Of a stretch of 64,000 nt of DNA, positions 1-15,897 are shown piece by piece. A model generated the notes under the pieces. The model saw only the letters and a program-made list of their open reading frames with translations, did no database searches and was not told where the DNA came from. The stretch is taken from the NCBI RefSeq assembly GCF_014851685.1, contig NZ_JACVAC010000003.1, forward strand, positions 372,001 through 436,000, in the 5' to 3' direction. Position 1 is the stretch's first letter; each line of letters opens with the position of its first letter. A program made the position numbers and the translations under genes. The DNA comes from Pseudomonas sp. PDM05 (GTDB taxonomy: Bacteria > Pseudomonadota > Gammaproteobacteria > Pseudomonadales > Pseudomonadaceae).

Positions 1-286
1 CCTCGGAGCGCAACAGGTTCTCGACCCGGCGCTCGATCACGCGATCGGCCGCGGGCAACAACACCACTTGCTCGAACGGCTGCGGCCAGGCCAGCAACAG
101 CCCGGCATTCTGGATACGGTCGAGGGCGCCGAAGTGCAACACCACGGCACGGTTCTGCGGGTCGATCTGGCGCACATTGGAAAGCGCCCAGGCCAACGCG
201 GCCAATACGGTCACCGCGTACAGCGCCAGGAACGTCAGGCGCCCGGCCTGGACCCATGGGCTGTCCGGGCTGTCACGCTCGGTCAT
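1..286 (-). CDS. SPFH/band-7 membrane protein (HflK/HflC-like), C-terminus beyond window
   Basis: Only the first 95 residues are visible; the gene runs off the left edge. After a short polar N-terminus (MTERDSPDSPWVQAGR) there is one hydrophobic segment at about residues 17-38, then the start of a band-7 domain with the typical 'DPQNRAVVLHFGALDRI' and 'WPQPFEQV' elements. This is the layout of HflK/HflC and related prohibitin-like proteins, which form periplasm-facing multimeric assemblies and often modulate membrane proteases such as FtsH. The start ATG overlaps the stop of the upstream band-7 gene (ATGA), so the two are translationally coupled. It is the third of three tandem SPFH genes. 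True hflK-hflC normally sits beside hflX/hfq, so this is a paralogous set of unknown role. Confidence 0.8.
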   Translation of the reverse strand, partial: MTERDSPDSPWVQAGRLTFLALYAVTVLAALAWALSNVRQIDPQNRAVVLHFGALDRIQNAGLLLAWPQPFEQVVLLPAADRVIERRVENLLRSE

Positions 287-1275
287 GGCTGGACGTCCTT
301 CGGCCCGTCCACCAGGGCGCGGAACGGCGCCGCGTCGGTGCGCAGGATGATCCTGGTGCCTGGCGAAACCACGGTACCCAAGGTGTCCAGCGAACGCAGC
401 AGGTTATACAGCTGCGGATTACCGGCGTAGGCACGGCCGTAGATCTGCGCGGCTTCGACCCGCGATTGCGCCTCGATGTCGGCGGCTTTGACCGTGGCAT
501 CGGCCTGCACGATGCGCGCGTCACGCTCGGCGGCGGAGCGGATCTGCGCCGCTTCACGCTTGCCCACGGCCGTGCGCTCGGTGGCGATGGTTTCACGCTC
601 GGCGCGCATGCGGTCGACGGTGGCGGTGAGCGTCACCGACGGCAAGGTCAGCCGTTCGATACCGACTTGGGCCACGCGCACGCCGTAGGTGGTGAGCAAT
701 TGTTGATCAATCTGTTGGCGCAACTGCGCTTCAAAATCAGCAATGCGCACTTGGCTGGCATCGGTATTGATCAAGCTCGACAGGTCAAAGCTGGCTGCGG
801 TGGTTTCCAGCGCCGAACCGACAAAGGTACGAATCTGCCGCGCCGCTTCATCCGGCTGGTTCTGCACGGCGCGCATAAAGCGCTGCACGTTGTCGGCATC
901 GCCCTGCACCTGCCACGCCACGTACGCCTGCACGATGATGCGCAGGCCATCGCGGGTGCCCACGTCCTGCAAGCCGCTGGAGGTGGTGCGCAGGCGCAGG
1001 TCCACCGGGATCGCCGCTTCGAACGGCGCCGGCCAGCGCCAGCCCAGGCCCGGCTCCAGCAGCACCCGCGCCGGGTTGCCGAAACGGGTAATCACCGTGG
1101 CTTCGCCGGAGCGCACTTGCACCAGGCTCGCGGCCGCGACCGCAAACAGCACCAGCAGCACCGCCCAGGCCATGCGCCGCCATGGGAACGGGCCGGCGGC
1201 GGGTTCGTCGCCATGATGATGGTGGTGGTGGTGATGGCCATGATGATGACCGTGATCGTGAGAATGAGCGCTCAA
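283..1275 (-). CDS. SPFH/band-7 protein with polyhistidine N-terminus (HflC-like)
   Basis: 330 residues. The first 23 residues hold 14 histidines (positions 4-21), followed by one membrane segment at about residues 34-50 (WRRMAWAVLLVLFAVAAAS) and a band-7 domain at about 55-240. The region from about 210 to 290 is rich in Ala/Glu/Arg and probably forms the coiled coil typical of HflC-type proteins ('RERETIATERTAVGKREAAQ'-like). The His run lies on the cytoplasmic side if topology is N-in, and could bind Zn, Ni or Cu; that is inference. It is 12 nt downstream of the larger SPFH gene and overlaps the next by 4 nt, so the three genes form one operon. The function is not known from sequence alone. 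Confidence 0.85.
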   Translation of the reverse strand: MSAHSHDHGHHHGHHHHHHHHGDEPAAGPFPWRRMAWAVLLVLFAVAAASLVQVRSGEATVITRFGNPARVLLEPGLGWRWPAPFEAAIPVDLRLRTTSSGLQDVGTRDGLRIIVQAYVAWQVQGDADNVQRFMRAVQNQPDEAARQIRTFVGSALETTAASFDLSSLINTDASQVRIADFEAQLRQQIDQQLLTTYGVRVAQVGIERLTLPSVTLTATVDRMRAERETIATERTAVGKREAAQIRSAAERDARIVQADATVKAADIEAQSRVEAAQIYGRAYAGNPQLYNLLRSLDTLGTVVSPGTRIILRTDAAPFRALVDGPKDVQP

Positions 1276-1287
1276 CAGACCGACTCC

Positions 1288-3192
1288 TTATTGAACGGCT
1301 TTGCGCGGCAGCGACGGATCGGCCGGCAAGGAAAAAGAACGCAGATCGATCGTCGGCGCACTGTCGGCGCCCAGGCGATGATCCAGAATCAACAGCTTGG
1401 CGTGGGCCAGGCCCTGGCTCAGTTGGCCGAGGTACTGTTCCAGCACGAAGGCTTTGCCCGCGCTGGCGTAGGCCTTTTGTTCGGCGGCGAAACGCAGGTC
1501 GGCCGCCTGGGCACCGGCATTCACTTCGCGCGCGGTGGCCGTGGCCTGGTCACGGGCGCTGCTGGCTTGCAGCAGGGCCAGGTTGGTTTGTTCGCTGGCG
1601 GCGCCGCGTTCGCGGGAGATCAGCGCCTGTGCACCGATCTGCGCAGCTTGCACGCCGTGATAGGCATTAGCGGCGCCGGCCGGTGGGTGGATCGCTTCCA
1701 CCACCGTGGCGAGGATTTCCACGCCGCTGTCGAGGTGATGCAGATCGGCCTGCACGGCGCGGCCGATCTCGTCAGCGAGGCTGGTGCGTTGCTCGCCGAG
1801 CAATTCGTCAAGGGTGCGCGAGGCAAAGTCGTGGACCAGGATGCGGCTGGCGGTGCTGCGGATCAGGGTCGGCACATCCGCGCTGTTGTAGGTGGCGGCC
1901 AGCGCGGCGTGGTCGTTGAGGCCGATGCGGTAGACGAAACGCACGTCCATGTTGACGATCTGGAAGCCCTGCTTGTCGCCGCTGCTGCTGGCGATGACCT
2001 GGGATTTGTCATTCACGTGGCTGGCGTCCCACAGGCGGTTGGCGATCAGCGGCGCCGGGCCTTCAGCGGCGGCCAGCTCCGGGGCGGCGGCCTCACTGAC
2101 GCTGGTGGCGAGTTCATGCACCACGCCGTTTTCCACACTGATCACGCGGCCCAGCGGCCAGGGCAGACCGGCATGCAGGCCAGGGCCGAACACCTCCACC
2201 GGCTTGCCGAAGCGCTCATAAATCCCACGACCTTGCAGGGGCACTTCGTGCACACCAGTAAGCGCCCAGCCTACCGCCAGCACCACCAGCAACACCGGCA
2301 GAAATGCGCGGCGGATGTAGGTAAACGCCCAGATCTGGCGCAGGTCGATGCCGAAGCGGTTGTGCAATTCGTGCTGCAAGGCGAGCAAGGGTTGCGGTGG
2401 CCAGCGCAGCAGCCCGGCGATAACGCTTTGCGCCATCAGCCGCGGTTCGAGGCGTGGTTGGCGCGGACTGAACAGCGAAAGGATGGCCCTGAGCAGAAAC
2501 TCGATGGCGACCAGCGCGGGTAACCCGCCGATCAGCACCGCGAGCCGCAACGGCCAGACCGCTTCGGCACTGGCGAACAGCAGGCAAATTCCACTGAGCA
2601 CCAGGCAGATAATCGCCACCCGGCTCAACTGCGCCAGCTGCGCGGCTTCCGGCCATTGCACGGCGGTTTCCTGGGCGAGGCGGCGTTCGAACACCAGCAG
2701 GCCAAACGCCAAGGCCAGTGCCAACGCGGCACCGATGCTGGCGGATTGACCGACTGCTGCAGCGGGCAGGGCCAGGTTCCAGAACTCGACGACACTGACC
2801 AGCGCCAGCAGCGACCAACCGCCGAGCCACACCACCGGCGTACCGATCTGCTGGGCGAAGCGCTCGGTGAAGCGGGCGTAGCGGCTGGTGTCCTCAACCG
2901 GCACTTGCGCCGCAGGTTCTTCCAGCGCCTGGGCGCGCCAATCGGCCACCCACCACGCCGACTGCAAACCGGCCACCAGCAACAGCAACGCCGACGCACA
3001 GTTGATCAACACCACCGGCCAGATCGACAGCGGCGCGAACAGCGCGACGAACAGCGCCAGTACCCACCCGCACAGCGCCACCGCCGTCAGGCTGATCCCG
3101 GCCTGGCGCAATCGACGGGCATGGAACAGCCCCTGCTGAAAACGCGGCAGGCCTTCCACCGAAGCGCCGTCAGCCTCTAGATCCACTTGCAT
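1288..3192 (-). CDS. Polytopic membrane protein with C-terminal SPFH/band-7 domain (HflK-like)
   Basis: 634 residues from ATG 3192 (MQVDLEADGAS). The open frame continues further upstream to 3378, but that extension only translates the REPIN at 3291-3377, so I rejected it. The N-terminal part of about 330 residues holds some seven hydrophobic segments in two clusters (around residues 35-80 and 120-240, then one near 305-320). A band-7 domain follows, starting at 'VPLQGRGIYERFGKPVEVFGPGLHAGLPWPL', and then an Ala/Gln-rich helical tail. Ordinary HflK has one membrane segment and about 400 residues, so the polytopic N-terminus is an added domain. It is the first gene of the three-gene SPFH operon. 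Confidence 0.8.
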   Translation of the reverse strand: MQVDLEADGASVEGLPRFQQGLFHARRLRQAGISLTAVALCGWVLALFVALFAPLSIWPVVLINCASALLLLVAGLQSAWWVADWRAQALEEPAAQVPVEDTSRYARFTERFAQQIGTPVVWLGGWSLLALVSVVEFWNLALPAAAVGQSASIGAALALALAFGLLVFERRLAQETAVQWPEAAQLAQLSRVAIICLVLSGICLLFASAEAVWPLRLAVLIGGLPALVAIEFLLRAILSLFSPRQPRLEPRLMAQSVIAGLLRWPPQPLLALQHELHNRFGIDLRQIWAFTYIRRAFLPVLLVVLAVGWALTGVHEVPLQGRGIYERFGKPVEVFGPGLHAGLPWPLGRVISVENGVVHELATSVSEAAAPELAAAEGPAPLIANRLWDASHVNDKSQVIASSSGDKQGFQIVNMDVRFVYRIGLNDHAALAATYNSADVPTLIRSTASRILVHDFASRTLDELLGEQRTSLADEIGRAVQADLHHLDSGVEILATVVEAIHPPAGAANAYHGVQAAQIGAQALISRERGAASEQTNLALLQASSARDQATATAREVNAGAQAADLRFAAEQKAYASAGKAFVLEQYLGQLSQGLAHAKLLILDHRLGADSAPTIDLRSFSLPADPSLPRKAVQ

Positions 3193-3290
3193 CCACTTAC
3201 GTCCGCTTGCACACAATTGGTTACGATATAACACGGGGCGTGAAATTTTTGTCCGGTGAATGTCGCTTTCAAACCCAACCACCGATTCCC

Positions 3291-3377
3291 TGTGGGAGCT
3301 GGCTTGCCTGCGATGCTGACAACAAGGTCTTCCAGCAAAACCGAGGTGATTCAATCGCAGGCAAGCCAGCTCCCACA
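3291..3377. repeat. REPIN-type inverted repeat (GTGGGAGCTGGCTTGCC class)
   Basis: An arm reading TGTGGGAGCTGGCTTGCCTG starts at 3291 and its reverse complement ends at 3377, separated by an unrelated centre. Copies of the same arm occur at 21332-21420 and 59357-59443. This is the REP doublet structure typical of the P. fluorescens group, dispersed by RAYT transposases. The rest of the 3193-3525 gap shows no gene and only the promoter region of the next operon. Confidence 0.85.
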
Positions 3378-3525
3378 TTGATCGTTTCCACTTCTATACC
3401 TCGTTGTGCTCGGGAGCGTGACTAAACCCCCATAAACACGCGCCATCACTGGTACAGGCCAGGATTAAGCGGCACACTCCAAGCCAGTTTTTCGCGGGCT
3501 CACGGACAAGGAAGCGTCACCTCCC

Positions 3526-4146
3526 ATGATTTCGATCTATCAGCTCAAACCGCGTTTTCAAAACCTGCTGCGCCCCCTCGTGCAGCGCCTCTACGACAAC
3601 GGCACCACCGCCAACCAGATCACCGTGCTGGCCGGCGTGGTTTCCCTGCTGGTCGGCCTGCTGATCGCCAGCTTCGCCCAACACCTGTGGCTGTTTGCGC
3701 TGATCCCGCTGTGGATGATCCTGCGCATGGCCCTCAACGCCATCGACGGCATGCTCGCCCGGGAATTCGGCCAGCAGTCGCGCCTGGGTGCCTACCTCAA
3801 TGAGTTGTGCGACGTGATTGCCGACAGCGCGCTGATCCTGCCGTTTGCATTGATTCCCGGCGTGAGCCTGGCGCCGGTGCTGCTGGTGGCGTTGCTGGCG
3901 GTGTTCAGCGAATACGCCGGGGTGCTCGGGCCGATGGTGGGCGCATCGCGGCGCTACGACGGGCCGATGGGCAAGAGCGATCGGGCGTTTGTGCTCGGCG
4001 TGCTGGCCACTGGTGTAGCGCTGGGTTGGCTCGGCGCCAGCTGGGTGGATGGGGTGATGTGGCTGGTCGCCGCCCTGCTTGCCTACACCCTGGTCAACCG
4101 GGTGCGCCAAGGCCTCAAAGAACAACAAGACTCCCCTTCTGCATAA
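3526..4146 (+). CDS. ynbA: CDP-alcohol phosphatidyltransferase family protein (YnbA-like)
   Basis: 206 residues, polytopic. The family catalytic motif D-x2-DG-x2-AR-x8-G-x3-D-x3-D is present at residues 71-96, but in altered form: N71-A-I-D74-G-M-L-A-R79 ... G88-A-Y-L-N92-E-L-C-D96. The first and third aspartates are thus asparagine, although the spacing is intact. Family members move a phosphatidyl group from CDP-diacylglycerol to an alcohol at the inner membrane. From memory E. coli YnbA has the same Asn pattern, which would make it a subfamily trait, not damage. It is the first gene of a six-gene operon whose other members also match Ynb proteins or lipid enzymes. The acceptor alcohol is unknown. 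Confidence 0.85.
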   Translation: MISIYQLKPRFQNLLRPLVQRLYDNGTTANQITVLAGVVSLLVGLLIASFAQHLWLFALIPLWMILRMALNAIDGMLAREFGQQSRLGAYLNELCDVIADSALILPFALIPGVSLAPVLLVALLAVFSEYAGVLGPMVGASRRYDGPMGKSDRAFVLGVLATGVALGWLGASWVDGVMWLVAALLAYTLVNRVRQGLKEQQDSPSA

Positions 4147-4156
4147 GGATTTTGCG

Positions 4157-5905
4157 ATGCGCGAACAACAAGCACACACCTTCAGTACCCACGATGGCGT
4201 CGAGCTGTTCTACCGGCACTGGCCGGCCACCGCGGGCGACGGGCCACGCAAGGCCATCGTGTTGTTCCATCGCGGCCATGAGCATTCGGGGCGCATTGCC
4301 CATCTGGTCGATGAACTGGACCTGCCACACTTCGACTTCTTCGCCTGGGATGCCCGTGGCCACGGCCAGTCTCCCGGCGAACGCGGCGACAGCCCCAGCT
4401 TCGCCACCAGCGCCCGCGACGTGCAAACCTTCTGCGACCACATCGGCGCCACCTATGGCATCGAGGAAGAGAACTTCGCCGTCATCGCCCAAAGCGTCGG
4501 CGCGGTGATCGCGGCCACCTGGGTGCATGACTACGCGCCAAAGATCCGCGCGCTGGTGCTCGCCTCGCCGGCGTTCAAGGTCAAGCTCTACGTGCCGTTC
4601 GCCCGGCCGGGCCTGGCGTTGATGCGCAAGTTTCGCGGCAACTTTTTCGTCAACAGCTACGTCAAGGCCAAGTTCCTCAGCCATGACCCCGAGCGCGTGG
4701 CGTCCTACGACAGCGACCCGCTGATCACCAAGGCGATCTCGGTAAATGTGCTGCTCGGCCTGTACGAAGCGGCCGACCGGGTTGTGGCCGATGCCCAGGC
4801 GATCCAGGTGCCGACCCAATTACTGGTGTCCGGCTCGGACTTCGTGGTGCACCGCAAACCCCAGCAGCAATTTTTCGACCGCCTCGGCAGCCTGAAAAAA
4901 GAGCTGCACATCCTCCCCGGTTTCTTCCACGACACCCTCGGCGAACGCGACCGCGCCACCGCCGTGAGCAGCGCCAAGCGCTTTATCCTGCAGAACTTCG
5001 AACACCCGCTGGACCGCGCCTCGCTGCTCGACGCCGACAAGATCGGCGCCACCTGCGCCGAATCCGAAGCCCTCGCCGCGCCGTTGCCGCGCAACTCCCT
5101 GCGCGACCTGTACTGGCGCCTGACCCGCGCCAGCATGGGCCTGGGCAAGAACCTGTCGGACGGGGTCAAGCTGGGCTTCGACACCGGTTTCGACTCCGGC
5201 AGCACCCTGGACTACGTGTACCGCAACAAGCCCACCGGCAAGGGCGGGCTGGGGCGGATGATCGACACCAACTACCTCAACTCCATCGGCTGGCGCGGCA
5301 TCCGCCAGCGCAAGCTGAACGTCGAGGAACTGCTGCGCCTGGCCATGGCCAAGTTGCGTGCCGATGATCGCGAAGTACGCATCGTCGACATCGCCGCCGG
5401 CCACGGTCGCTACATTCTGGAAGCCTTGCAGGGCGTTTCGCCGCTGCCGGAGTCGATCCTGCTGCGCGACTACAGCGACATCAATGTGCGTGACGGTGGC
5501 GCGCTGATTCGCGAGAAGGGCCTGGGCGACATTGCCCAATTCGTCAAAGGCGATGCATTTGACCGTACGGACCTGGCCGCGCTGGCGCCCAAGCCGACGC
5601 TGGCGGTGGTGTCCGGGCTGTACGAATTGTTTGCCGACAACGCCATGGTCGGCGGCTCGCTGGCCGGGCTGGCTGAAGCGGTAGAGCCCGGCGGTTATCT
5701 GGTCTACACCGGCCAGCCATGGCACCCGCAACTGGAGCTGATCGCCCGTGCGCTGACCAGCCACCGCCAGGGCCAGGCCTGGGTAATGCGCCGGCGCAGC
5801 CAGGCGGAGATGGATCAACTGGTCGAGGCGGCGGGCTTTCGCAAGATCACCCAGCGGGTGGACGAATGGGGCATTTTCACCGTGTCCGTGGCACAGAAGA
5901 TCTGA
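4157..5905 (+). CDS. ynbC: Fused alpha/beta hydrolase and SAM-dependent methyltransferase (YnbC-like)
   Basis: 582 residues from ATG 4157, chosen because AAGGA lies 8 nt upstream; an upstream in-frame ATG at 4079 lies inside the previous gene. Residues about 1-300 are a serine hydrolase of the monoglyceride-lipase type: nucleophile S113 in the elbow AQSVGA, D228 in SGSDF and H258 in GFFHD form a credible triad. Residues about 340-582 are a class I methyltransferase with motif I VDIAAGHGR (410-418) and the acidic residue region LRDYSDINVRD. Two activities in one chain suggest that a lipid-linked product is hydrolysed or acyl-trimmed and then methylated. The stop is 2 nt before the next start. 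The assignment by domain is firm; the substrate is unknown. Confidence 0.88.
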   Translation: MREQQAHTFSTHDGVELFYRHWPATAGDGPRKAIVLFHRGHEHSGRIAHLVDELDLPHFDFFAWDARGHGQSPGERGDSPSFATSARDVQTFCDHIGATYGIEEENFAVIAQSVGAVIAATWVHDYAPKIRALVLASPAFKVKLYVPFARPGLALMRKFRGNFFVNSYVKAKFLSHDPERVASYDSDPLITKAISVNVLLGLYEAADRVVADAQAIQVPTQLLVSGSDFVVHRKPQQQFFDRLGSLKKELHILPGFFHDTLGERDRATAVSSAKRFILQNFEHPLDRASLLDADKIGATCAESEALAAPLPRNSLRDLYWRLTRASMGLGKNLSDGVKLGFDTGFDSGSTLDYVYRNKPTGKGGLGRMIDTNYLNSIGWRGIRQRKLNVEELLRLAMAKLRADDREVRIVDIAAGHGRYILEALQGVSPLPESILLRDYSDINVRDGGALIREKGLGDIAQFVKGDAFDRTDLAALAPKPTLAVVSGLYELFADNAMVGGSLAGLAEAVEPGGYLVYTGQPWHPQLELIARALTSHRQGQAWVMRRRSQAEMDQLVEAAGFRKITQRVDEWGIFTVSVAQKI

Positions 5906-5907
5906 AC

Positions 5908-7206
5908 ATGCGCGAACCCGGTCTGCTCAAGCCCGCCGTCCTCTGGCTGCTGCTGTTGGCGCCGCTGTTCTTCAGCACCTACGGCTTCGCCACCTGGGTC
6001 ACCAGCCAGCGCAGCGACGTCGGCACGTTGGTGTTCGACTGGGAAACCCACATGCCCTTCCTGGCGTGGAGCATCGTGCCCTACTGGTCCATCGACCTGC
6101 TTTACGGGTTCTCCCTGTTGCTGCCCAACAGCCGGCATGAACTGAAGCAACATGCGCTGCGGCTATTGAGTGCGCAGGTGATTGCCGTGAGTTGCTTCCT
6201 GATCTGGCCGCTGCGTTTCACCTTCGAGCGGCCCGAACTGGATGGCGTGTTCGGCTGGCTGTTTGCCGTGCTGGCCGGGTTCGACAAACCGTTCAACCAG
6301 GCGCCGTCGCTGCACATCGCGCTGCTGGTGATCCTGTGGGTCATGTACCAGCGCCACACCCAGGGTGTCTGGCGCTGGCTGGTACACGGCTGGTTCGCGT
6401 TGATCGGTCTTTCGGTGCTGACCACTTATCAACATCACTTTATCGACTTACCCACAGGCGCCCTCGCCGGCTGGATCTGCGTGTGGCTATGGCCGGTGGA
6501 ACATCCGAGCCCGCTGCTGAATGCGCGGCTGACGCGGGACCCCAAGCGCTGGCGGCTGGGCGCGCGTTACGGCCTGGGCGCGTTGCTGCTGGCGGTGCTT
6601 GCGTTGGCCCTGGGCGGCGGCTGGCTGTGGCTACTGTGGCCGGCGGTGTCCCTGGCCTTGATCAAGGCGAACTACTTCGTGCTGGGCGCCGCAGGCTTCC
6701 AGAAGCGCGCCGATGGTCGACTGACACCGGCCGCGCGCTGGCTGTATGCGCCTTACCTGGCGGCGGCGTGGATCAACTCGCGCCTGTGGACACGCAAACA
6801 TCCACAACCGGACCGGATTGTGGATAACGTCTGGCTCGGGCGCATTCCCACGACCCGCGAGCAGGAGCCCTTCAAGGCCATCGTCGATCTCTGCGCCGAA
6901 TTGCCGATTAATCCACAGGGACGTGCCTATCAGGCCATCCCCGTGCTGGACCTGATCGCCCCGACGCCCGCCGAATGCCTGCTCGCCGCCGAGGCCATCG
7001 AACGCCTGCGCGCCAGTGGCCCGCTGCTGGTGTGTTGCGCCCTGGGCTATTCGCGCAGCGCGACGGCGGTTGCCGCGTGGCTGCTGCACAGCGGGCGGGC
7101 CACGACGGTGGAGGATGCGCTGACTATTATTCGTACAGCGCGGGCCGATGTGGTCCTGCACCCCGCTCACCGTGAAGCTTTGGAGGGTTTGCCCCATGCC
7201 CGCTGA
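5908..7206 (+). CDS. ynbD: PAP2-family membrane phosphatase fused to dual-specificity phosphatase domain (YnbD-like)
   Basis: 432 residues from ATG 5908. The N-terminal two thirds is polytopic, with PAP2 acid-phosphatase motifs PSLH (H136) and YQHHFIDLPTG (H176/H177, D180), the residues that carry out phosphate removal from lipid or polyprenyl phosphates. The C-terminal 130 residues form a cysteine phosphatase domain with a C-x5-R loop, C377-A-L-G-Y-S-R383, preceded by VDNVWLGRIPT and VDLCAEL elements typical of dual-specificity phosphatases. Such fusions suit dephosphorylation of phosphatidylglycerophosphate- or inositol-phosphate-like lipids. It is translationally close to both neighbours (2 nt before, overlap after). 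Confidence 0.88.
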   Translation: MREPGLLKPAVLWLLLLAPLFFSTYGFATWVTSQRSDVGTLVFDWETHMPFLAWSIVPYWSIDLLYGFSLLLPNSRHELKQHALRLLSAQVIAVSCFLIWPLRFTFERPELDGVFGWLFAVLAGFDKPFNQAPSLHIALLVILWVMYQRHTQGVWRWLVHGWFALIGLSVLTTYQHHFIDLPTGALAGWICVWLWPVEHPSPLLNARLTRDPKRWRLGARYGLGALLLAVLALALGGGWLWLLWPAVSLALIKANYFVLGAAGFQKRADGRLTPAARWLYAPYLAAAWINSRLWTRKHPQPDRIVDNVWLGRIPTTREQEPFKAIVDLCAELPINPQGRAYQAIPVLDLIAPTPAECLLAAEAIERLRASGPLLVCCALGYSRSATAVAAWLLHSGRATTVEDALTIIRTARADVVLHPAHREALEGLPHAR

Positions 7207-7639
7207 TATGGAACTCCAGGTCGTCGCCAGCCTGCTGCGCCGCGGCCGTTCGCTGGATCAGTTATCCACAGGCCTGACCCTGCTCGGCGTGTTGTTCGGC
7301 CTGGCCCAACTGCTGATGGCCAGCATTACGCCAATCTGCCTGCTGCTCAGCCTGTGGATGATTATCCTTGGGCTGCTGCAAAAGTACTGGGCGCTGCGCG
7401 TGGCCTTCGATGCCGACCTGTTCGCCCTGCTCGCCCGCGACACCGAACGCACCGCCGACCTCGACCTGGCCCTGCAAACCCTTGGCCTGCAAGCGCCCAA
7501 ACGCGCCGGCCGGCCCTGGACCGAACGCCGTCGCGGCGCCCTCAAACTGCTGCGCAAACAAGCCTGGTTGCTGGGTGCACAAACGCTGCTGACCCTGGGC
7601 GTGATCCTCGCCAGCCCCTGGCTGCCTTTCGCCGGATAA
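7196..7639 (+). CDS. Small membrane protein of the lipid operon, unknown function
   Basis: 147 residues from ATG 7196, with GGAGGG 8 nt upstream; a second ATG at 7208 is less well placed. Two hydrophobic segments at about residues 24-62 (GVLFGLAQLLMASITPICLLLSLWMIILGLL) and one at about 125-143 flank a charged cytoplasmic or periplasmic stretch with RDTERTADLDLALQTLGL and a basic PWTERRRGALKLLRK patch. I do not recognise a family. It overlaps the end of the phosphatase gene by 11 nt and ends 9 nt before the acyltransferase, so it is an integral member of the operon and may be a scaffold or partner of the membrane enzymes. Confidence 0.75.
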   Translation: MPADMELQVVASLLRRGRSLDQLSTGLTLLGVLFGLAQLLMASITPICLLLSLWMIILGLLQKYWALRVAFDADLFALLARDTERTADLDLALQTLGLQAPKRAGRPWTERRRGALKLLRKQAWLLGAQTLLTLGVILASPWLPFAG

Positions 7640-7648
7640 GGAATTCCC

Positions 7649-8269
7649 ATGTTCGAACCCGTGGTCGCCACGCTGATTACCTCCATGGCCCGCACCGTTA
7701 CCGGCGCCCGCAGCCTGTGGCTGGGCTGCGCACCTGTGCCGGTGCAACGCATCTACTTCGCCAACCACAGCAGCCACGGCGACTTCGTGCTGCTGTGGGC
7801 CTCATTGCCGCAAAACCTGCGCAAATTCACGCGCCCGGTGGCCGGTAGCGATTACTGGAGCAAAAGCGCCTTGCGCCGCTACATCATCAACCGTGTGTTC
7901 AACGGCGTGCTGATCGACCGCGAGCGCAAGGACCCTGTGGATAACCCGTTGCAGCCCATGTTGACCGCATTGGAAGGCGGCGACTCGCTGATCCTGTTTC
8001 CCGAAGGCACGCGCAATCTGGAAGACGGCCTGCTGCCGTTCAAAAGCGGCTTGTATCACTTGGCAAAAAGTTACCCACAGGCCGAACTGGTGCCTGTGTG
8101 GATAGCCAACCTCAACCGGGTCATGCCCAAGGGTCGCGTGTTGCCGCTGCCCCTGCTGTGCACCACCAGCTTCGGCACGCCGTTGCATTTGGAAGAAGGC
8201 GAAGACAAGACCGCGTTCCTCGCCCGCACCCGTGACGCCCTGCTCGCCCTAGCCCCGGAGCATTCCTGA
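7649..8269 (+). CDS. PlsC-type 1-acyl-glycerol-3-phosphate acyltransferase
   Basis: 206 residues. It has both acyltransferase signatures: NHSSHGD with H40 and D45 (H-x4-D catalytic dyad), and FPEGTR at 117-122 (glycerol-phosphate binding), followed by FKSGLYHLA. The protein is short and lacks a clear N-terminal membrane helix, so it is probably peripheral. The housekeeping plsC candidate is the separate gene at 53359-54129, so this copy likely feeds the operon-specific lipid pathway by making phosphatidate for the CdsA-like enzyme encoded immediately downstream (1 nt after its stop). E. coli ynbABCD, as I recall it, lacks this gene. Confidence 0.85.
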   Translation: MFEPVVATLITSMARTVTGARSLWLGCAPVPVQRIYFANHSSHGDFVLLWASLPQNLRKFTRPVAGSDYWSKSALRRYIINRVFNGVLIDRERKDPVDNPLQPMLTALEGGDSLILFPEGTRNLEDGLLPFKSGLYHLAKSYPQAELVPVWIANLNRVMPKGRVLPLPLLCTTSFGTPLHLEEGEDKTAFLARTRDALLALAPEHS

Positions 8270-8270
8270 T

Positions 8271-9203
8271 ATGCATAGCCAGACCATAATGCTGTTCGGC
8301 GGCATCGGCGCGATCCTGGTGCTCGCCTCGCTGATCGGCCTGATCCTCAAGCTGCGCACCCGTGGCACGCCTAACGCGGTGATCGACAACCTCAACGCAC
8401 GCATCAACGCCTGGTGGGTGATGGTGGTGGTCATCGGCATCGCCTTCTGGCTCGGCACCGGGGCGGTGATCCTGCTGTTCTACGCGGTGTCGTTCTACGC
8501 CCTGCGCGAATTCCTCACCCTCACCCCCACCCGCCGCAGCGACTACCCGGCGCTGGTGGCCGCGTTCTACCTGGCGCTGCCGCTGCAATACCTGCTGATT
8601 TACTCGGACTGGTACGGGCTGTTCTCGATCTTCATCCCGGTGTACGTGTTCCTGCTGCTGCCGATCCTCGCCTCCCTCGGCGGCGACAGCACACACTTTT
8701 TGGAACGGGCGTCGAAGGTGCAATGGGGCCTGATGATCGCCGTGTTCTGCGTGTCGTTCGTGCCGGCCCTGCTGACCCTCGACATTCCCGGCTACGAGGG
8801 CCGCAACCTGCTGCTGATCGCCTACCTGGTGATCGTGGTGCAACTGTCGGACGTGCTCCAGTACGTGTGTGGGAAGTTGTTCGGCAAACACAAGATCGCG
8901 CCCAACCTGTCGCCCTCCAAAACCGTGGAAGGCTTTGTCGGCGGGATCTTGCTGTCCTCCCTGATCGGCGCAGCCCTGTGGTGGACCACGCCGTTCAACC
9001 CATGGCAGTCGTTCCTGATCGCGCTGTTGATCAACCTGCTGGGGTTTGCTGGCGGCATCGTGATGTCGGCGATCAAGCGCGACCGGGGCGTGAAGGATTG
9101 GGGGCACATGATCGAGGGGCATGGCGGCATGCTGGATCGCTTGGACTCGGTGTGTTTTGCCGCGCCGATTTTCTTTCACCTGGTGCGGTTCTGGTGGACC
9201 TGA
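8271..9203 (+). CDS. ynbB: Phosphatidate cytidylyltransferase family protein (CdsA/YnbB-like)
   Basis: 310 residues with about eight hydrophobic segments. The CDP-diglyceride synthetase signature is present near residues 263-292: S-x2-KRD-x2-KDWG-x4-GHGG-x2-DR-x-D, including the metal-binding DR.D end. The reaction is CTP plus phosphatidic acid giving CDP-diacylglycerol, the donor used by the CDP-alcohol transferase at 3526. As the last gene of the operon it closes a logical loop: acyltransferase to phosphatidate, cytidylyltransferase to CDP-lipid, transferase to head-group lipid, phosphatase and hydrolase-methyltransferase to finish. The housekeeping cdsA of Pseudomonas lies elsewhere (near uppS/dxr), so this is a paralogue. 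Confidence 0.88.
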   Translation: MHSQTIMLFGGIGAILVLASLIGLILKLRTRGTPNAVIDNLNARINAWWVMVVVIGIAFWLGTGAVILLFYAVSFYALREFLTLTPTRRSDYPALVAAFYLALPLQYLLIYSDWYGLFSIFIPVYVFLLLPILASLGGDSTHFLERASKVQWGLMIAVFCVSFVPALLTLDIPGYEGRNLLLIAYLVIVVQLSDVLQYVCGKLFGKHKIAPNLSPSKTVEGFVGGILLSSLIGAALWWTTPFNPWQSFLIALLINLLGFAGGIVMSAIKRDRGVKDWGHMIEGHGGMLDRLDSVCFAAPIFFHLVRFWWT

Positions 9204-9236: not shown

Positions 9237-9328
9237 ATGTGGGAGCGGGCTTGCTCGCGAAGGCGGTGTTTCAGCCACTTGATAGGTTGGCTGACACACC
9301 GCCTTCGCGAGCAAGCCCGCTCCCACAT
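9237..9328. repeat. REPIN-type inverted repeat (GTGGGAGCGGGCTTGCTCGCG class)
   Basis: A left arm from ATGTGGGAGCGGGCTTGCTC at 9237 and its reverse complement ending at 9328 form a long imperfect hairpin with arms of about 30 nt. It lies 33 nt after the last gene of the lipid operon and may serve as its transcript end or 3' stabiliser. The arm differs from the copy at 3291 in the GCGGG/CTCGCG bases, so it belongs to another REP subclass. Confidence 0.85.
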
Positions 9329-9359
9329 AGGCTTTGCGGTGACACCTAAAAACTTTTAT

Positions 9360-10072: not shown

Positions 10073-10092
10073 CTTAGCCAGGGATGCTCACC

Positions 10093-13000
10093 ATGTTCGA
10101 CTCGTTCAAAACGATCTGTCGCCGTTTGTACGGTGCATTAACGACTGTGGTGGGCGCCTTGTTCGGCCAATGGAGCCCGCCGTTCTGGCTGCGCGCCATC
10201 GGTGATGGCGTGCTGGCGCTCGGTCAGAAGGCCCGCGCTTATCCGCGCCAGGCCGGGGCCGGCGTGCTGGGCCTGGTGCTGCTGGGCGCTGCCGGGTTCT
10301 ACGGCTGGCAGTGGTATTCCCACCTGCCCAAGCCCCACACCGTGAGTTATTCGCTGCACAAGCCCAACCTCACCGATTACACCCAGCCAACGCCGGTTGT
10401 GGATAACTTGCAGGTGCGTTTCGCCGAGTCCGTGGCCCCACTGGCGGCGATTGGCAAGCCGGTGAGCGAAGGCATCACCCTCAAGCCGAGCGTGGCGGGT
10501 ACGTGGCGCTGGTCCGATGACCGCACCTTGCTGTTCGTGCCGGAGAAAGACTGGCCGATCGACGCCGGTTACACCCTGGACCTGGCGAAGAAAAACCTGC
10601 TGGCCGACGGCGTACTGCTCGACCAATACAGTGCCCAGTTCTCCACCCAACCGTTCCGCGCCACCCTGGCGCAAAACGAGCTGTACCAGGACCCGTCCAA
10701 TCCAACGCTGAAACAGCTGGTGGCGACCTTCCACTTTTCCCACCCAGTGGATGAAGACAGCCTACGCAAACGCGTGACAGTGACCCTTGGCAAAGGCCTG
10801 GCCTACCGCGACGCCCAGTTGCCCAATCGGCCGGAAGTGACGTTCGACGAGAAAAAACTCAACGCCTACGTGCGCTCCGCCGCCCTGGCTACACCGCTGG
10901 AAAGTACCCCGGTCAGCGCCAAGCTCGACGAAGGCCTCAAGGCCCGCGACGGCGGCAACGCCAGCAACGCGCCGCTGGTGGCGCAAGTCACGGTGCCCGG
11001 GCGTTATCGCCTGACATTCACTGGCGCCGAAGTCAGCTTTGTCGACAACCAGCGCGGCGAACCCGAGCCGGTGCTGATGTTCAGCAGCTCTAGCGCCGTA
11101 GCCGATGACACCATCGCCGGTAAGGTGCAGGCCTGGCTGCTGCCGGAAAAAGCCGAGGACGATACGCGCCCCTACAACAGCAACGACATCGACGATGCCC
11201 TGCTCGCCCGCAGCACCAAGGTCAACCTGACCCACGTGCCCAGCGTCGAACCGTTGAACACCCTGCATGCCTTCAAGTTCAAGGCCCCGGCCGGCCGGGC
11301 TATCTATGTGCGCGTGCCCGCCAACCTGGAAGCCATCGGCGGTTATCTGGCGAAGAATCCTACGGCGTCGCTGATCAGCATGCCGGCGTACCCGCGCACG
11401 TTGCAGTTCCTGTCTGACGGCGCCCTGCTCAGCCTCAACGGCGAAAAACGCCTGGGCTTCATGGCCCGTGGCGTGCCCGGCGCCCATGTGGAAATCGCCC
11501 GCCTGCTGCCCAACCAATTGCAGCATCTGGTGGACCAGAGCAGCGGTAGCTTTGCCCGGCCGAATTTCGGCAACGAGTACTTCGACCGCATGGTGGAACG
11601 TCAGACGCTGGACATTCCACTGTCGTCCAATGACCCGGCGAAAACCGTCTACGACAACGTCGACCTCAGCCACTACCTCACCGCCAACGGCGGCCGTCGT
11701 GGCATTTTTGTACTCAAGCTCAGCCCCCAGGACGAGCCGGTCGAGCGCACCTTCGAGTACGACCGCAGCAGCACCAGCGACCTGCGCTTTATCGTAGTGA
11801 CCGACCTGGGCATCATCGCCAAGCGCTCCAGCGATGGCAGCCATGATGTGTACGTACAGTCCATCGGCAACGGTTCGCCGGTGGCCGACGCACAGGTCGA
11901 CATCATCGGCCGCAACGGCTTGCCCGTGAGCAGCGGGCGCACCGATGGCGAAGGCCACGCGCATTTCGCCAAGCTGGATGAATTGCGCCGTGAGAAAACG
12001 CCGCTGATGTATGTCGTCACTCGCGGCAATGACCAATCCTTCCTGCCGATTGCCCGTCAGTCCCAGCAACTGGATTTGTCGCGCTTCGATGTAGGCGGTT
12101 TGGAAGAAGACGGTGCGGTTGATCGCCTCAGCGCCTACCTGTTTACCGACCGCGGCCTGTACCGCCCAGGCGAGACCGCGCACCTGGGCATGATCGTGCG
12201 CAGCGGCAACTGGAAAGGTGCCCTGCAAGGCCTGCCGGTAGAGTTGCAAATCACCGACCCACGCGGCCTGGAAGTGATTCGCCAGCCGCTGAAGCTGTCC
12301 GCCAGTGGTTTTGAAACCTTTGATTTCCCCAGCAGCGAAGTCGCCCCCGCCGGGGACTACACCGCGACCTTGCAGTTGATTGGCCAGAAACAGACCCGCA
12401 CCGACCTGGGCAGCGTCAGCTTCAAGGTCCGCGACTTTGAACCGGACCGCATGAAAGTCAGCCTGAGCCTGCATGACACTCCCGTGCAGGGCTGGATTCC
12501 ACCGGACCAAGTGGTCGCCAAAGTCACCGCGATGCACCTGTTCGGCGCCCCGGCGGCCGGGCGTCGGGTGACCGCGAAAATGTCCCTGAGCCCAACGCTC
12601 GCGGCATTCGAGCGCTATCCCGATTACCGCTTCCGCCTCAACGATTCCCTGGAAGAGGCCAGCACCGAAGACCTCGCCGAAACCACCGTGGATGACAACG
12701 GCCAGGCTCTGCTCGACCTCAACCTGCAACGCTTCGCCAACAGCACCTATCGCCTGCAGGTCATGACCCAGGTGTTCGAAGCCGAAGGCGGGCGCAACGT
12801 GGCGGCGCAAAGTGCCTTGTTGGTGTCGTCTGCGCCTTACCTTGTGGGTGTGAAAAGTCAGGACTCGCTGTCGTACGTCGCCAAGGATGCGCCACGCGAG
12901 GTGCAATGGCTGGCCGTGGCGCCGGACCTTTCGCCGCTGGCAGTGGAGGGCCTGACCAGCGAAGTGGTCGAGCACCGCTATGTGTCGGTGCTGGTGAAAC

Positions 13001-15897
13001 AGTCCAACGGCACCTACAAGTACGAGTCGCGCATCAAGAACATCAGCCAGCCGGCATCCAAGCTGGTGATGACCCAGGACGGCGCCAGGCAGAGCCTCAA
13101 CACCGGCACGCCGGGTGATTACACCCTGCAACTGAAAGACGCCAACGGCAACCTGCTCAACCAGATCGACTACAGCGTGGCCGGGCGTGGCAACACCTCG
13201 CGCTCCCTGGAGCGCAACGCCGAACTGCAACTGCGCCTGGATAAACGCAGCTACGCCACCGGCGACGAGATCGCCATCAGTATCCGCGCGCCGTACACCG
13301 GGGCCGGCTTGATCACCATCGAACGGGACAAGGTCTATACCCAGCAGTGGTTCAGGGCTGACAGCACCAACAGCGTGCAACATATCCGCGTGCCTGCGGG
13401 GCTTGAAGGCAATGCCTACGTCAACGTGCAGTTTGTGCGCGACATGGGCTCGGCCGAGGTGTATATGAGCCCGCTGTCCTCCGGCGTGGTGCCCTTCAGT
13501 ATCAACCTGGATGCGCGACGCATGGCGCTGAAAGTCGAGGGCCCGGCGAAGGTCGAGCCGGGGCAAATGCTCGACATCAAGGTCAACGCCGACCGCCCGG
13601 GCCGCGCCGTGGTGTATGCGGTAGACGAAGGCATCCTGCAAGTGGCGCGCTACCAGACGCCGGACCCGTTGGGTTTCTTCTTCCAGAAGCGCGCGCTGGA
13701 AGTCGGCACCAGTCAGATCCTTGACCTGATCCTGCCGGAATTCAGCCGCTTGCTCAGTGGGGCAGCGCCCGGTGGCGATACGGAAGGCGCCCTGGCCAAT
13801 CACCTCAACCCGTTCAAGCGTAAACATCAGCCGCCCGTGGCGTGGTGGTCCGGGTTGGTGGACCTGCCGGCCGGTGAGACTGTGCTGCATTACCAGGTGC
13901 CGGACAGTTTCAACGGCAAGCTGCACCTCTTCGCGGTGGCGGTGGACAGCGACAGCGTGGGTGTCAGTGAGGCCAACACCGAGGTGCGTGGGCCGATCGT
14001 GATCACACCGAACGTGCCGGCCTTCGTGGCGCCTGGGGATGTGTTCAATGTCAGCGCCGGGGTGTTCAGCAACCTCGACGCCGCGGCCAACGTGAAGTTT
14101 GAGGTGCAAACCAGCGACGGCCTCAAGGTGCAGGGCGACAAGGGCAGCACCTTGGCCCTGCAACCGCGCAAGGAAGGCACCGCCGAGTTCAAGATCAAGG
14201 TCGGTGAAACCCTGGGTTCGGCCGACCTGCGCTTTGTCGCGGTACTGCCGGATGGCAAGCGTATCCAGGTGGCGGAAACCACTTCGATCCGCCCCCTGAG
14301 TGAGCACCGTGTGGCCTTGAGCCTGGGCCGCTTCGACAGCGCCAGCAAAGAGCTCAAGCCAACCCGCGAGCTGTTCAGCCAACTGCGCGACGTACAACTG
14401 GGCGTCGCCGCCTCGCCGCTGGTGTGGGCCAACGGTCTCAAGCATTACCTGGATGACTACGGCTACGCCTGCACCGAGCAATTGGTGTCCAAGGCCATGC
14501 CCGCGCTGATCTGGGGTGGCAACGCCCCTGAAGCCGAGCAGGCCTTCAGCAGCGCGGTGCGCATGTTGCGCCAACGCCAGAACCAGGCCGGCGGCTTTGG
14601 TTTGTGGGCGGCCAACCCGGATGTGGCGCCGTACGCCAGCCTGTATGCCACCGACTTCCTGATCGAAGCCAAGGAGCGTGGGTTGCCGGTGCCGGAAGAC
14701 CTGCTGGTACGCTCGAACGCGTATCTGACAGATTTGGCCAACGGTCCTAGCGAAGGCCTGTCGGAATTGCGCAACCGTGCCTACGCCAGTTACCTGCTGA
14801 GCCGTCAGGGGATTCTGGTGAGCGGTGCCTTGAGTGACATTCGCGAGCGCTACGAGAGCTACTTCAAGGACAGCTGGCAGAACGACCTCGGTGCCGCTTA
14901 CCTGGCCGCCAGCTACAAGTTGCTCAAGCAGGATCGCCAGGCCGATACCTTGTTCCGCAAGATCCCTTGGCGCGCCCTTGTGGATAAGTGGACCAGCGAC
15001 GGTATGTACTACGACCCGCTGGTGCACGACGCCGAACACTTGCACCTGCTGGCGCGGCATTTCCCGGAGCTGATGGACGACGTGCCAACGGCGCTGCTGG
15101 ATAAACTCGGTAAACGCTTGAACGAACAGCGCTACAACTCGCTGTCGGCGGCACTGTTGCTGCGGGCTTTGGATAACTATGGCCAGCGTGCGCAAAGCGA
15201 CATGACGCTCAAGGCCACGGCCTGGTTGGGCGACAAGCAACAACAGTTGCTGGAAATGGCTGGCCAGCCGCCGCGCGCCGCCGTTCCCGGGGCCACGCAA
15301 AAACTGGTCATGGAAAAATCCGACGGCCCGGCCGCGTTCTACATGCTCAGCGAAGCCGGTTTCGACAAGGGCGCCAAGCTCAAGCCGATCAACAACGGCC
15401 TGGAGATCATCCACGAGTACCTCGACCTCAAGGGCGACCCGGTGAGCAAGGTCGCAGTGGGCGATGAGTTCCTGGTGCGCTTGCGTCTGCGCGCCACCGA
15501 TCGCGACCAGGTGCAGCAAGTGGCGGTGGTCGACCTGCTGCCGGGTGGCGTCGAGCCTGTGTATAACTTGCCGCCGGAGCCGGAAGCGGCCAGCAGCGAA
15601 GAGAGTGAAGGCGAAGAGTCCGAGTATGTGGAAGAAGACAGCCAGGAAGCCGAAGCCTGGCAAGCGCCCATCGGCGAGACCGAGCTGAGCAACTGGCAGC
15701 CGGACTACGTGGATGTACGCGATGATCGAGTGGTGTTGTACGGCACTGCACTGCGCGATGTAGGTACCTTCGTGTACCGCGTGCGCGCCACCAACGCGGG
15801 GACGTTCAATACGCCACCGGCCTACGCCGAAGGCATGTACGAAACCACCCTGCAAGGGCGCGGCAAAGTAGGCCATCTTGAAATTACCAAGCCTTAA
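10093..15897 (+). CDS. yfhM: Bacterial alpha-2-macroglobulin (YfhM-type) with CxEQ thioester
   Basis: 1934 residues from ATG 10093 (AGGGA about 9 nt upstream; ATG 10084 is an alternative). Bacterial macroglobulins are periplasmic, membrane-anchored traps that react with attacking proteases through an internal thioester. The thioester motif is visible as Y-A-C1460-T-E-Q1463, in the usual context of a helical thioester domain (GYACTEQLVSKAMPALIWGG). A hydrophobic stretch at about residues 53-75 follows a basic N-terminus; I see no lipobox Cys, so anchoring is by a transmembrane helix, unlike the lipoprotein E. coli enzyme. An acidic insert (Glu/Ser-rich, about 1825-1855) lies near the C-terminus. 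It overlaps pbpC by 20 nt, the classic partnership of defence and cell-wall repair. Confidence 0.93.
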   Translation: MFDSFKTICRRLYGALTTVVGALFGQWSPPFWLRAIGDGVLALGQKARAYPRQAGAGVLGLVLLGAAGFYGWQWYSHLPKPHTVSYSLHKPNLTDYTQPTPVVDNLQVRFAESVAPLAAIGKPVSEGITLKPSVAGTWRWSDDRTLLFVPEKDWPIDAGYTLDLAKKNLLADGVLLDQYSAQFSTQPFRATLAQNELYQDPSNPTLKQLVATFHFSHPVDEDSLRKRVTVTLGKGLAYRDAQLPNRPEVTFDEKKLNAYVRSAALATPLESTPVSAKLDEGLKARDGGNASNAPLVAQVTVPGRYRLTFTGAEVSFVDNQRGEPEPVLMFSSSSAVADDTIAGKVQAWLLPEKAEDDTRPYNSNDIDDALLARSTKVNLTHVPSVEPLNTLHAFKFKAPAGRAIYVRVPANLEAIGGYLAKNPTASLISMPAYPRTLQFLSDGALLSLNGEKRLGFMARGVPGAHVEIARLLPNQLQHLVDQSSGSFARPNFGNEYFDRMVERQTLDIPLSSNDPAKTVYDNVDLSHYLTANGGRRGIFVLKLSPQDEPVERTFEYDRSSTSDLRFIVVTDLGIIAKRSSDGSHDVYVQSIGNGSPVADAQVDIIGRNGLPVSSGRTDGEGHAHFAKLDELRREKTPLMYVVTRGNDQSFLPIARQSQQLDLSRFDVGGLEEDGAVDRLSAYLFTDRGLYRPGETAHLGMIVRSGNWKGALQGLPVELQITDPRGLEVIRQPLKLSASGFETFDFPSSEVAPAGDYTATLQLIGQKQTRTDLGSVSFKVRDFEPDRMKVSLSLHDTPVQGWIPPDQVVAKVTAMHLFGAPAAGRRVTAKMSLSPTLAAFERYPDYRFRLNDSLEEASTEDLAETTVDDNGQALLDLNLQRFANSTYRLQVMTQVFEAEGGRNVAAQSALLVSSAPYLVGVKSQDSLSYVAKDAPREVQWLAVAPDLSPLAVEGLTSEVVEHRYVSVLVKQSNGTYKYESRIKNISQPASKLVMTQDGARQSLNTGTPGDYTLQLKDANGNLLNQIDYSVAGRGNTSRSLERNAELQLRLDKRSYATGDEIAISIRAPYTGAGLITIERDKVYTQQWFRADSTNSVQHIRVPAGLEGNAYVNVQFVRDMGSAEVYMSPLSSGVVPFSINLDARRMALKVEGPAKVEPGQMLDIKVNADRPGRAVVYAVDEGILQVARYQTPDPLGFFFQKRALEVGTSQILDLILPEFSRLLSGAAPGGDTEGALANHLNPFKRKHQPPVAWWSGLVDLPAGETVLHYQVPDSFNGKLHLFAVAVDSDSVGVSEANTEVRGPIVITPNVPAFVAPGDVFNVSAGVFSNLDAAANVKFEVQTSDGLKVQGDKGSTLALQPRKEGTAEFKIKVGETLGSADLRFVAVLPDGKRIQVAETTSIRPLSEHRVALSLGRFDSASKELKPTRELFSQLRDVQLGVAASPLVWANGLKHYLDDYGYACTEQLVSKAMPALIWGGNAPEAEQAFSSAVRMLRQRQNQAGGFGLWAANPDVAPYASLYATDFLIEAKERGLPVPEDLLVRSNAYLTDLANGPSEGLSELRNRAYASYLLSRQGILVSGALSDIRERYESYFKDSWQNDLGAAYLAASYKLLKQDRQADTLFRKIPWRALVDKWTSDGMYYDPLVHDAEHLHLLARHFPELMDDVPTALLDKLGKRLNEQRYNSLSAALLLRALDNYGQRAQSDMTLKATAWLGDKQQQLLEMAGQPPRAAVPGATQKLVMEKSDGPAAFYMLSEAGFDKGAKLKPINNGLEIIHEYLDLKGDPVSKVAVGDEFLVRLRLRATDRDQVQQVAVVDLLPGGVEPVYNLPPEPEAASSEESEGEESEYVEEDSQEAEAWQAPIGETELSNWQPDYVDVRDDRVVLYGTALRDVGTFVYRVRATNAGTFNTPPAYAEGMYETTLQGRGKVGHLEITKP

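Follow-up and report, generated by a model that had tools for sequence, protein, structure and literature searches.

Which phospholipid, and which metal, would belong to a transferase that carries asparagine where its relatives carry metal-binding aspartates? This question is raised by a six-gene operon at positions 3526-9203, on the plus strand, of a 64,000-nt stretch of DNA from Pseudomonas sp. PDM05 (contig NZ_JACVAC010000003.1), which we call the window and to which all coordinates without a locus prefix refer. In operon order, we letter the genes A (cytidine diphosphate (CDP)-alcohol transferase family), C (hydrolase-methyltransferase fusion), D (PAP2-like membrane part with a cysteine phosphatase), M (small membrane protein), P (PlsC-type acyltransferase), and B (CdsA-like cytidylyltransferase). 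Both the operon and its defensive role are already in the literature, as arc1A-F of P. aeruginosa; what is new here is a conserved break in the metal-binding signature of gene A. We read the locus, at best, as a dedicated pathway to a phospholipid that is switched on to defend the membrane and whose head-group chemistry is uncertain. In its full form, i.e., that the six genes make a dedicated phospholipid which helps the cell to survive phospholipase toxins from rivals, we give this reading close to an even chance.

Gene A carries asparagine at two metal-binding positions

The CDP-alcohol transferase signature, D1xxD2GxxAR..GxxxD3xxxD4, comprises eight residues described as "absolutely conserved" (PMC4634129). 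In PgsA1 of Mycobacterium tuberculosis, D1, D2, and D3 coordinate Mg-1, and D3 also coordinates Mg-2; D3 can thus bridge the two ions, close to the presumed base D4 (PMC6506517). Gene A (3526..4146, plus strand, 206 aa, ynbA/arc1A type) matches the Pfam family CDP-OH_P_transf (PF01066) with 32.1 bits, above the cut-off of 22. By alignment to one profile, from which all signature residues were read, it has N71 at D1 (codon 3736..3738, plus strand) and N92 at D3, the metal-bridging position of PgsA1 (codon 3799..3801, plus strand), and keeps the other six residues.

We surveyed two samples: an even draw of 398 Pseudomonadota genomes, 27 of which, the window genome among them, have the gene C family (PF12147), and 80 named Pseudomonas loci. 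In the 398 genomes, the gene A profile gave 37 strong matches of at least 168 bits, 27 in loci with C and ten in loci without, and the next match scored 74 bits. The reading N-D-N-D at D1 to D4 was found in 28/28 gene A sequences from loci with C, E. coli included, and in 78/78 named Pseudomonas loci with a genuine gene A match (79 of the 80 gave some match; the 2.9-bit match of L139 was discarded, and the L109 stretch ends before A). Loci without C showed it in nine of ten cases, L180 reading A-D-N-D. Altogether, 115 of 116 gene A reads have the asparagine form, or 113 of 114 distinct sequences, there being two identical pairs from strains present in both draws. The 25 control relatives, made up of 20 lower-ranked matches to the gene A profile, L189, L190, and three family members of the window genome, read D-D-D-D in 21 cases, D-D-G-D in one, and N-D-N-D in three. 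Two of these three (L199 and L201) group in a tree with a sister family, A', which is described below, and the third (L200) is alike by sequence. When the tree was built without the two trait columns, all N-D-N-D rows (34 A, 15 A', and L201) lay on one side of one branch with a Shimodaira-Hasegawa-like approximate likelihood ratio test (SH-aLRT) value of 92, which is not a starred value and comes from a quick method and a tree with several long branches.

D2, D4, the nucleotide-contact residues N30 and T33, and the arginines R153 and R192 are fixed in the 106 gene A reads that come from loci with C or from named Pseudomonas. Both arginines, invariant in 28/28 loci with C and in 78/78 named Pseudomonas loci, align with R155 and R195 of M. 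tuberculosis phosphatidylinositol phosphate (PIP) synthase, which are held to bind inositol phosphate and whose mutation cripples activity (PMC4634129). Gene A shares with PIP and archaetidylinositol phosphate synthases the Pfam family, the nucleotide motif of the first transmembrane helix (TM1), D2, D4, and both phosphate-binding arginines, but differs from them by the asparagines at D1 and D3 and scores far under the family cut-offs. Archaetidylinositol phosphate synthase, its nearest NCBIfam model, gave 71.5 bits (cut-off 180) and the PIP synthase equivalog 50.4 bits (cut-off 170).

Given asparagine at both D1 and D3, the chemistry of gene A is likely to be unusual. Since the deletion of arc1A has a phenotype that is partly restored by complementation (PMC8926400), the asparagine form matters in the cell. 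A literature search, covering mainly freely available papers and largely at title level, turned up no paper on an asparagine change at D1 and D3, and the altered signature is not mentioned in the accessible text of the arc1A-F papers.

Correspondence to arc1A-F and the published defence role

PA2541-36 of P. aeruginosa PAO1 were named arc1A-F in a study that screened transposon mutants for their ability to survive when attacked by Burkholderia thailandensis (PMC8926400). We tied the names to genes by comparing the PAO1 deletion primer stretches for PA2541 and PA2536 (PMC8926400) with the locus of P. aeruginosa PA7 (L138), whose gene order is that of the six window genes. Seven of the eight stretches matched this locus with 0-2 mismatches each and fell on the ends of genes A and B or on the sequence flanking them; the eighth found no match on it (five mismatches at best). 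The window operon likewise consists of six co-directional genes with a PA2541 homologue first and a PA2536 homologue last and, judged by homology and order, is arc1A-F in kind and order. The four inner genes are presumably PA2540-37, an assignment we take from gene order and annotation. The window copy comes from another Pseudomonas, and Gac/Rsm control and defence against the type VI secretion system (T6SS) have been published for the P. aeruginosa copy only.

Two published screens link the operon to P. aeruginosa survival of T6SS attack, and one of them ties the first gene to lipase toxins. According to the first, the arc1A-F operon is required for resisting T6SS attack, Arc1 is under Gac/Rsm control with very low basal expression, and five of the six Arc1 genes look phospholipid-related; the study also reports that Arc1 plays no part when cells are stressed by heat, oxidants, salt, or detergent (PMC8926400). 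Arc1-3 are also listed as Gac/Rsm targets in a preprint (PMC11888443). A 2025 CRISPR interference (CRISPRi) study found arc1A, arc3A, and aas to be important against the lipase effectors Tle1 and TseL: arc1A mutants were more sensitive to A. baylyi armed only with Tle1, and their defect against V. cholerae was smaller once TseL was inactive (PMC12663445). The arc3 genes, which belong to the same regulon as arc1, prevent lysophospholipid build-up (PMC8926400), and the window genome also carries an Arc3A-type gene (PF10101).

The leader of gene A (3495..3525, plus strand) contains the motif A-N-GGA twice, at -24 and at -18. A-N-GGA is recognised as an RsmA-type motif, and at least one copy occurs in 62/78 gene A leaders of named Pseudomonas, two copies in 20/78. 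The pair in the window leader is suggestive of an RsmA-type control site that overlaps the ribosome-binding site.

Two recurring gene blocks

The six plus-strand reading frames are tightly packed, with successive gaps of 10, 2, -11, 9, and 1 nt, as an earlier note on this DNA had described. That note had staked its reading on the six genes being conserved together, and they are: scored with their own profiles, all six stand together in 23/27 gene C loci of the phylum sample and in 75/80 named Pseudomonas loci, so the grouping is not due to chance. Among the 27, the fetched stretches of L052 and L053 contain neither P nor B, L058 is left with A and C alone, and D and M are missing from L059; P and B run in the opposite direction in L057. 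The incomplete named Pseudomonas loci are L078, L091, and L109, which are ended by the contig, L115, whose C is split in two, and L139 of P. oryzagri, which keeps C-D-M (L139:9001-12513) and has no A, P, or B within the 19.7 kb stretch. A gene for a 717-aa WG-repeat protein lies between C and D at L056:10008-12158.

In the kind of neighbourhood survey that the earlier note had proposed for P and M, P lies near A in 32/37 loci of the 398 genomes, and B in 33/37. M was found in 25/27 loci with C, five of these at 26-66 bits, and in 0/10 without; D has the same distribution (25/27 and 0/10). Gene C is absent from ten of the 37 A loci, eight of which retain A, B, and P, its absence being unsure at L252, L259, and L260, which lie on short contigs. 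On a tree of 34 gene A sequences, the presence of C needs at least six changes. The operon is modular, and A-P-B and C-D-M are two recurring blocks, because A, P, and B recur without C, D and M occur only with C, and L139 keeps C-D-M alone. This split shows which deletions to compare. Other layouts are A-B-P (L177), A-B-P-C-D (L253), and A-B-C-D (L256). After the A-B-P block of L175, a weak match to a VTT (DedA-type) membrane protein was seen (L175:861-1397, 29 bits, cut-off 33.9).

Kinship with the E. coli ynb genes, proposed in the earlier note, is borne out. In E. coli K-12, the single operon ynbABCD has counterparts by homology to A, B, C, and D (identity 44% for A, 57% for C, and 41% for D), and YnbA has the same two asparagines as window A; the order is A-B-C-D, and both order and gene number differ from those of the window, P and M being absent from the fetched 14 kb. 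The idea that P and M were added to an operon of the E. coli kind has to be reversed, since 23/27 C loci hold six genes and E. coli ynb lacks P and M; the six-gene form is the commoner one, also outside Pseudomonas. By this comparison of sequences, the four-gene operon of E. coli is the reduced version of the six-gene one. Window gene C is 99% identical to the copy of Pseudomonas sp. CBZ-4 and 97% identical to that of P. canadensis. Carriage by viruses was considered and rejected: a single-protein search for close relatives of gene C, covering viral contigs but not plasmids or phage records, found none.

The sister family A'

A' proteins score 58-74 bits on the gene A profile. N-D-N-D was read in 8/8 of them, and the signature arginine is also lost (V, I, or M); these are eight of the nine matches at 59-75 bits on that profile, the ninth, in G043, not being included. 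P and B accompany A' at 12/15 loci; both are absent at L192 and L249, and L250 is ended by the contig. At L193:4606-5463, a separate Hydrolase_4 gene stands near the A'-P-B block and may be a free-standing equivalent of C's hydrolase half.

At L194:7070-15153, A'-B-P lies directly downstream of, and on the same strand as, VgrG, a DUF4123 protein, a Tle1-like phospholipase effector, and a DUF2931 protein. We treat this effector link as a lead only, because the four cluster proteins have no relatives near other A' loci. A T6SS neighbourhood was accordingly rejected as a general rule for A', being anecdotal at 1/15 loci. A bolder version of our reading would make the asparagine-type proteins, with their own acyltransferase and CDP-diacylglycerol synthase, a new class of CDP-alcohol transferase whose novel chemistry yields a lipid that resists toxins or repairs the membrane, an induced armour against phospholipase effectors that in at least one case stands directly behind such an effector gene; we regard this as possible but rather doubtful.

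The other five proteins and a proposed route

The domain architecture given in the earlier note stood for the domains named by Pfam and NCBIfam, and the PAP2 part of D fell below the Pfam cut-offs. Gene C (4157..5905, plus strand, 582 aa, ynbC type) fuses a monoacylglycerol-lipase-like hydrolase to a class I S-adenosylmethionine (SAM) methyltransferase (Pfam Hydrolase_4 and Methyltransf_20). S113, D228, H258, and the SAM loop D411..G415-H-G417 are invariant in 18/18 sequences, and we take their roles from the families. The methyltransferase half gave an AlphaFold2 model with a predicted local distance difference test score (pLDDT) of 83.7, and a fold search with this model against solved structures returned no informative match on the substrate. 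Gene D (5908..7206, plus strand, 432 aa, ynbD type) matches DSPc, the family of dual-specificity cysteine phosphatases, with 35.4 bits, above the Pfam cut-off of 33.5; its membrane part reached 21.9 bits on PAP2_3 (cut-off 27) and 16.1 bits on PAP2 (cut-off 27.2). H136, H176, D180, and C377-x5-R383 are invariant in 17/17 sequences, and we take the His/His/Asp pattern to be a PAP2 motif. Gene M (7196..7639, plus strand, 147 aa) encodes a small helical membrane protein without any Pfam or NCBIfam match, and its predicted model is all-helical with a pLDDT of 68, too weak for a fold search.

Gene P (7649..8269, plus strand, 206 aa) is of the PlsC type (PF01553, 57.3 bits) and contains the motifs N-H-x4-D and F-P-E-G-T-R. 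Gene B (8271..9203, plus strand, 310 aa, ynbB type) is a CdsA-like CTP:phosphatidate cytidylyltransferase (CTP_transf_1, PF01148, 246.6 bits, cut-off 24) in which S214-P-x-K217-T218 and K269-R270..K275-D276..G283-H-G-G..D289-R-x-D-S are invariant in 13/13 sequences. Both share domains and motifs with the housekeeping enzymes PlsC and CdsA but score far below the family cut-offs (P, 47.7 against 102.95 bits for NCBIfam 1-acylglycerol-3-phosphate acyltransferase; B, 96.5 against 385 bits for the CdsA equivalog), and both travel with A. The window genome has one further CdsA-type gene, two in total, and three further matches to the CDP-alcohol transferase family, so the six genes look like a dedicated set apart from housekeeping, in agreement with the earlier note.

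From these domains we infer a route, including each enzymatic step, the head group, and catalysis by A with a changed metal site. P would acylate lysophosphatidate to phosphatidate, which B would activate to CDP-diacylglycerol; A would join CDP-diacylglycerol to a phosphorylated polyol, and D would take off the head-group phosphate. C might then trim an acyl chain or degrade lysophospholipid and methylate the product, and M probably anchors D or C at the membrane. We would place the reactions in the order that the earlier note proposed: transfer, dephosphorylation, hydrolysis, and methylation. The resulting lipid, or the accompanying clearance of lysolipid, would protect against lipase toxins.

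Inositol phosphate was considered as acceptor, being hinted at by homology, and is weakened by the missing synthase: no inositol-1-phosphate synthase is present in the window genome, and the enzyme is missing in 33/37 genomes with A and present in 4/37. Because it is mostly missing, glycerol phosphate or another polyol phosphate is the likelier acceptor.

Alternative readings

Several points weigh against the dedicated defence lipid. Two of the four aspartates that bind metal are lost through N71 and N92, so head-group transfer may run differently from that in PIP and phosphatidylglycerophosphate synthases. E. coli YnbB failed to complement the loss of cdsA (PMC6362211), so B may not feed the bulk pool of CDP-diacylglycerol. 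The A-N-GGA motifs of the window leader sit in no stable hairpin (folding z +1.13), P. oryzagri has C-D-M by itself, and T6SS genes, sought with four queries from L194, lie near just one of 15 A' loci. In the CRISPRi study, arc1A and aas are auxiliary to arc3A, because loss of arc1A and aas on top of that of tssM1 and arc3A made a strain no more sensitive (PMC12663445). In the earlier screen, the Arc1 mutant was not rescued by mutating any one effector, defence against Tle3 and against ColA each brought just one Arc1 gene past the cut-off, and B. thailandensis survival was modestly higher upon loss of Arc1; its authors assign Arc1 a broader role (PMC8926400). Our literature search, mainly of freely available papers and largely at title level, gave no product for the arc1/ynb operon.

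A plain second phosphatidylglycerol (PG) pathway is the alternative that survives best, although we consider it unlikely. Here, P, B, A, and D would remake PG from glycerol-3-phosphate, with subsequent dephosphorylation, and so replace the attacked lipid, C being a side activity. The scarcity of inositol-1-phosphate synthase in genomes with A fits this pathway, as does its use of glycerol-3-phosphate, a universal metabolite. Four Arc1 genes also resemble enzymes of PG synthesis (PMC8926400). However, gene A scored 22.2 bits on the PgsA equivalog (cut-off 109.1), compared with its 71.5 bits on archaetidylinositol phosphate synthase, and lacks D1 and D3, both of which are kept by the best CDP-alcohol transferase match of the same genome, L001, which we read as its pgsA.

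We find it improbable that the operon is primarily a unit for disposal or repair of lysophospholipids, in which C would hydrolyse those made by the toxins, P would re-acylate lysophosphatidate, and B and A would pass phosphatidate on, with lysolipid removal outweighing the product. The hydrolase half of C does match monoacylglycerol lipases of solved structure and, weakly, the lysophospholipase L2 model (31.9 bits, cut-off 362), arc1A is needed against lipase effectors (PMC12663445), and arc3 of the same regulon stops lysophospholipid build-up (PMC8926400). Yet C is missing from ten of the 37 A loci, eight of which retain A, B, and P, the published single mutant hits A rather than C, and Aas is reported to remake phosphatidylethanolamine (PE) from lyso-PE (PMC8926400).

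That gene A, having lost D1 and D3, is no catalyst but a partner protein that binds lipid or nucleotide and directs B and P seems quite improbable to us: it would fit the loss of D3 in 116/116 reads and of D1 with it (asparagine in 115, alanine in one), the loss of the signature arginine in A' as well, and the near abolition of M. tuberculosis PIP synthase activity by a change of the fourth aspartate alone to asparagine (PMC4634129), but decay would not keep the presumed base D4, D2, N30/T33, and both arginines invariant in 106 reads.

Flanking genes and repeats

A bacterial alpha-2-macroglobulin gene (10084-15897, 1937 aa) starts about 880 bp past the operon, and two SPFH/Band 7 genes (283-3378, minus strand) lie upstream in the opposite direction. 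Such genes were found near the operon in 12/80 and 35/80 named Pseudomonas loci, respectively; these neighbours are not fixed, and we rejected both as parts of the operon. An alpha-2-macroglobulin is also part of the mag operon. That operon is reported as a separate T6SS-resistance factor (PMC12663445). On either side of the operon, at 3290-3380 and 9240-9330, there are long inverted repeats whose arms end in GCTCCCACA. They resemble the intergenic palindromes that are common in Pseudomonas.

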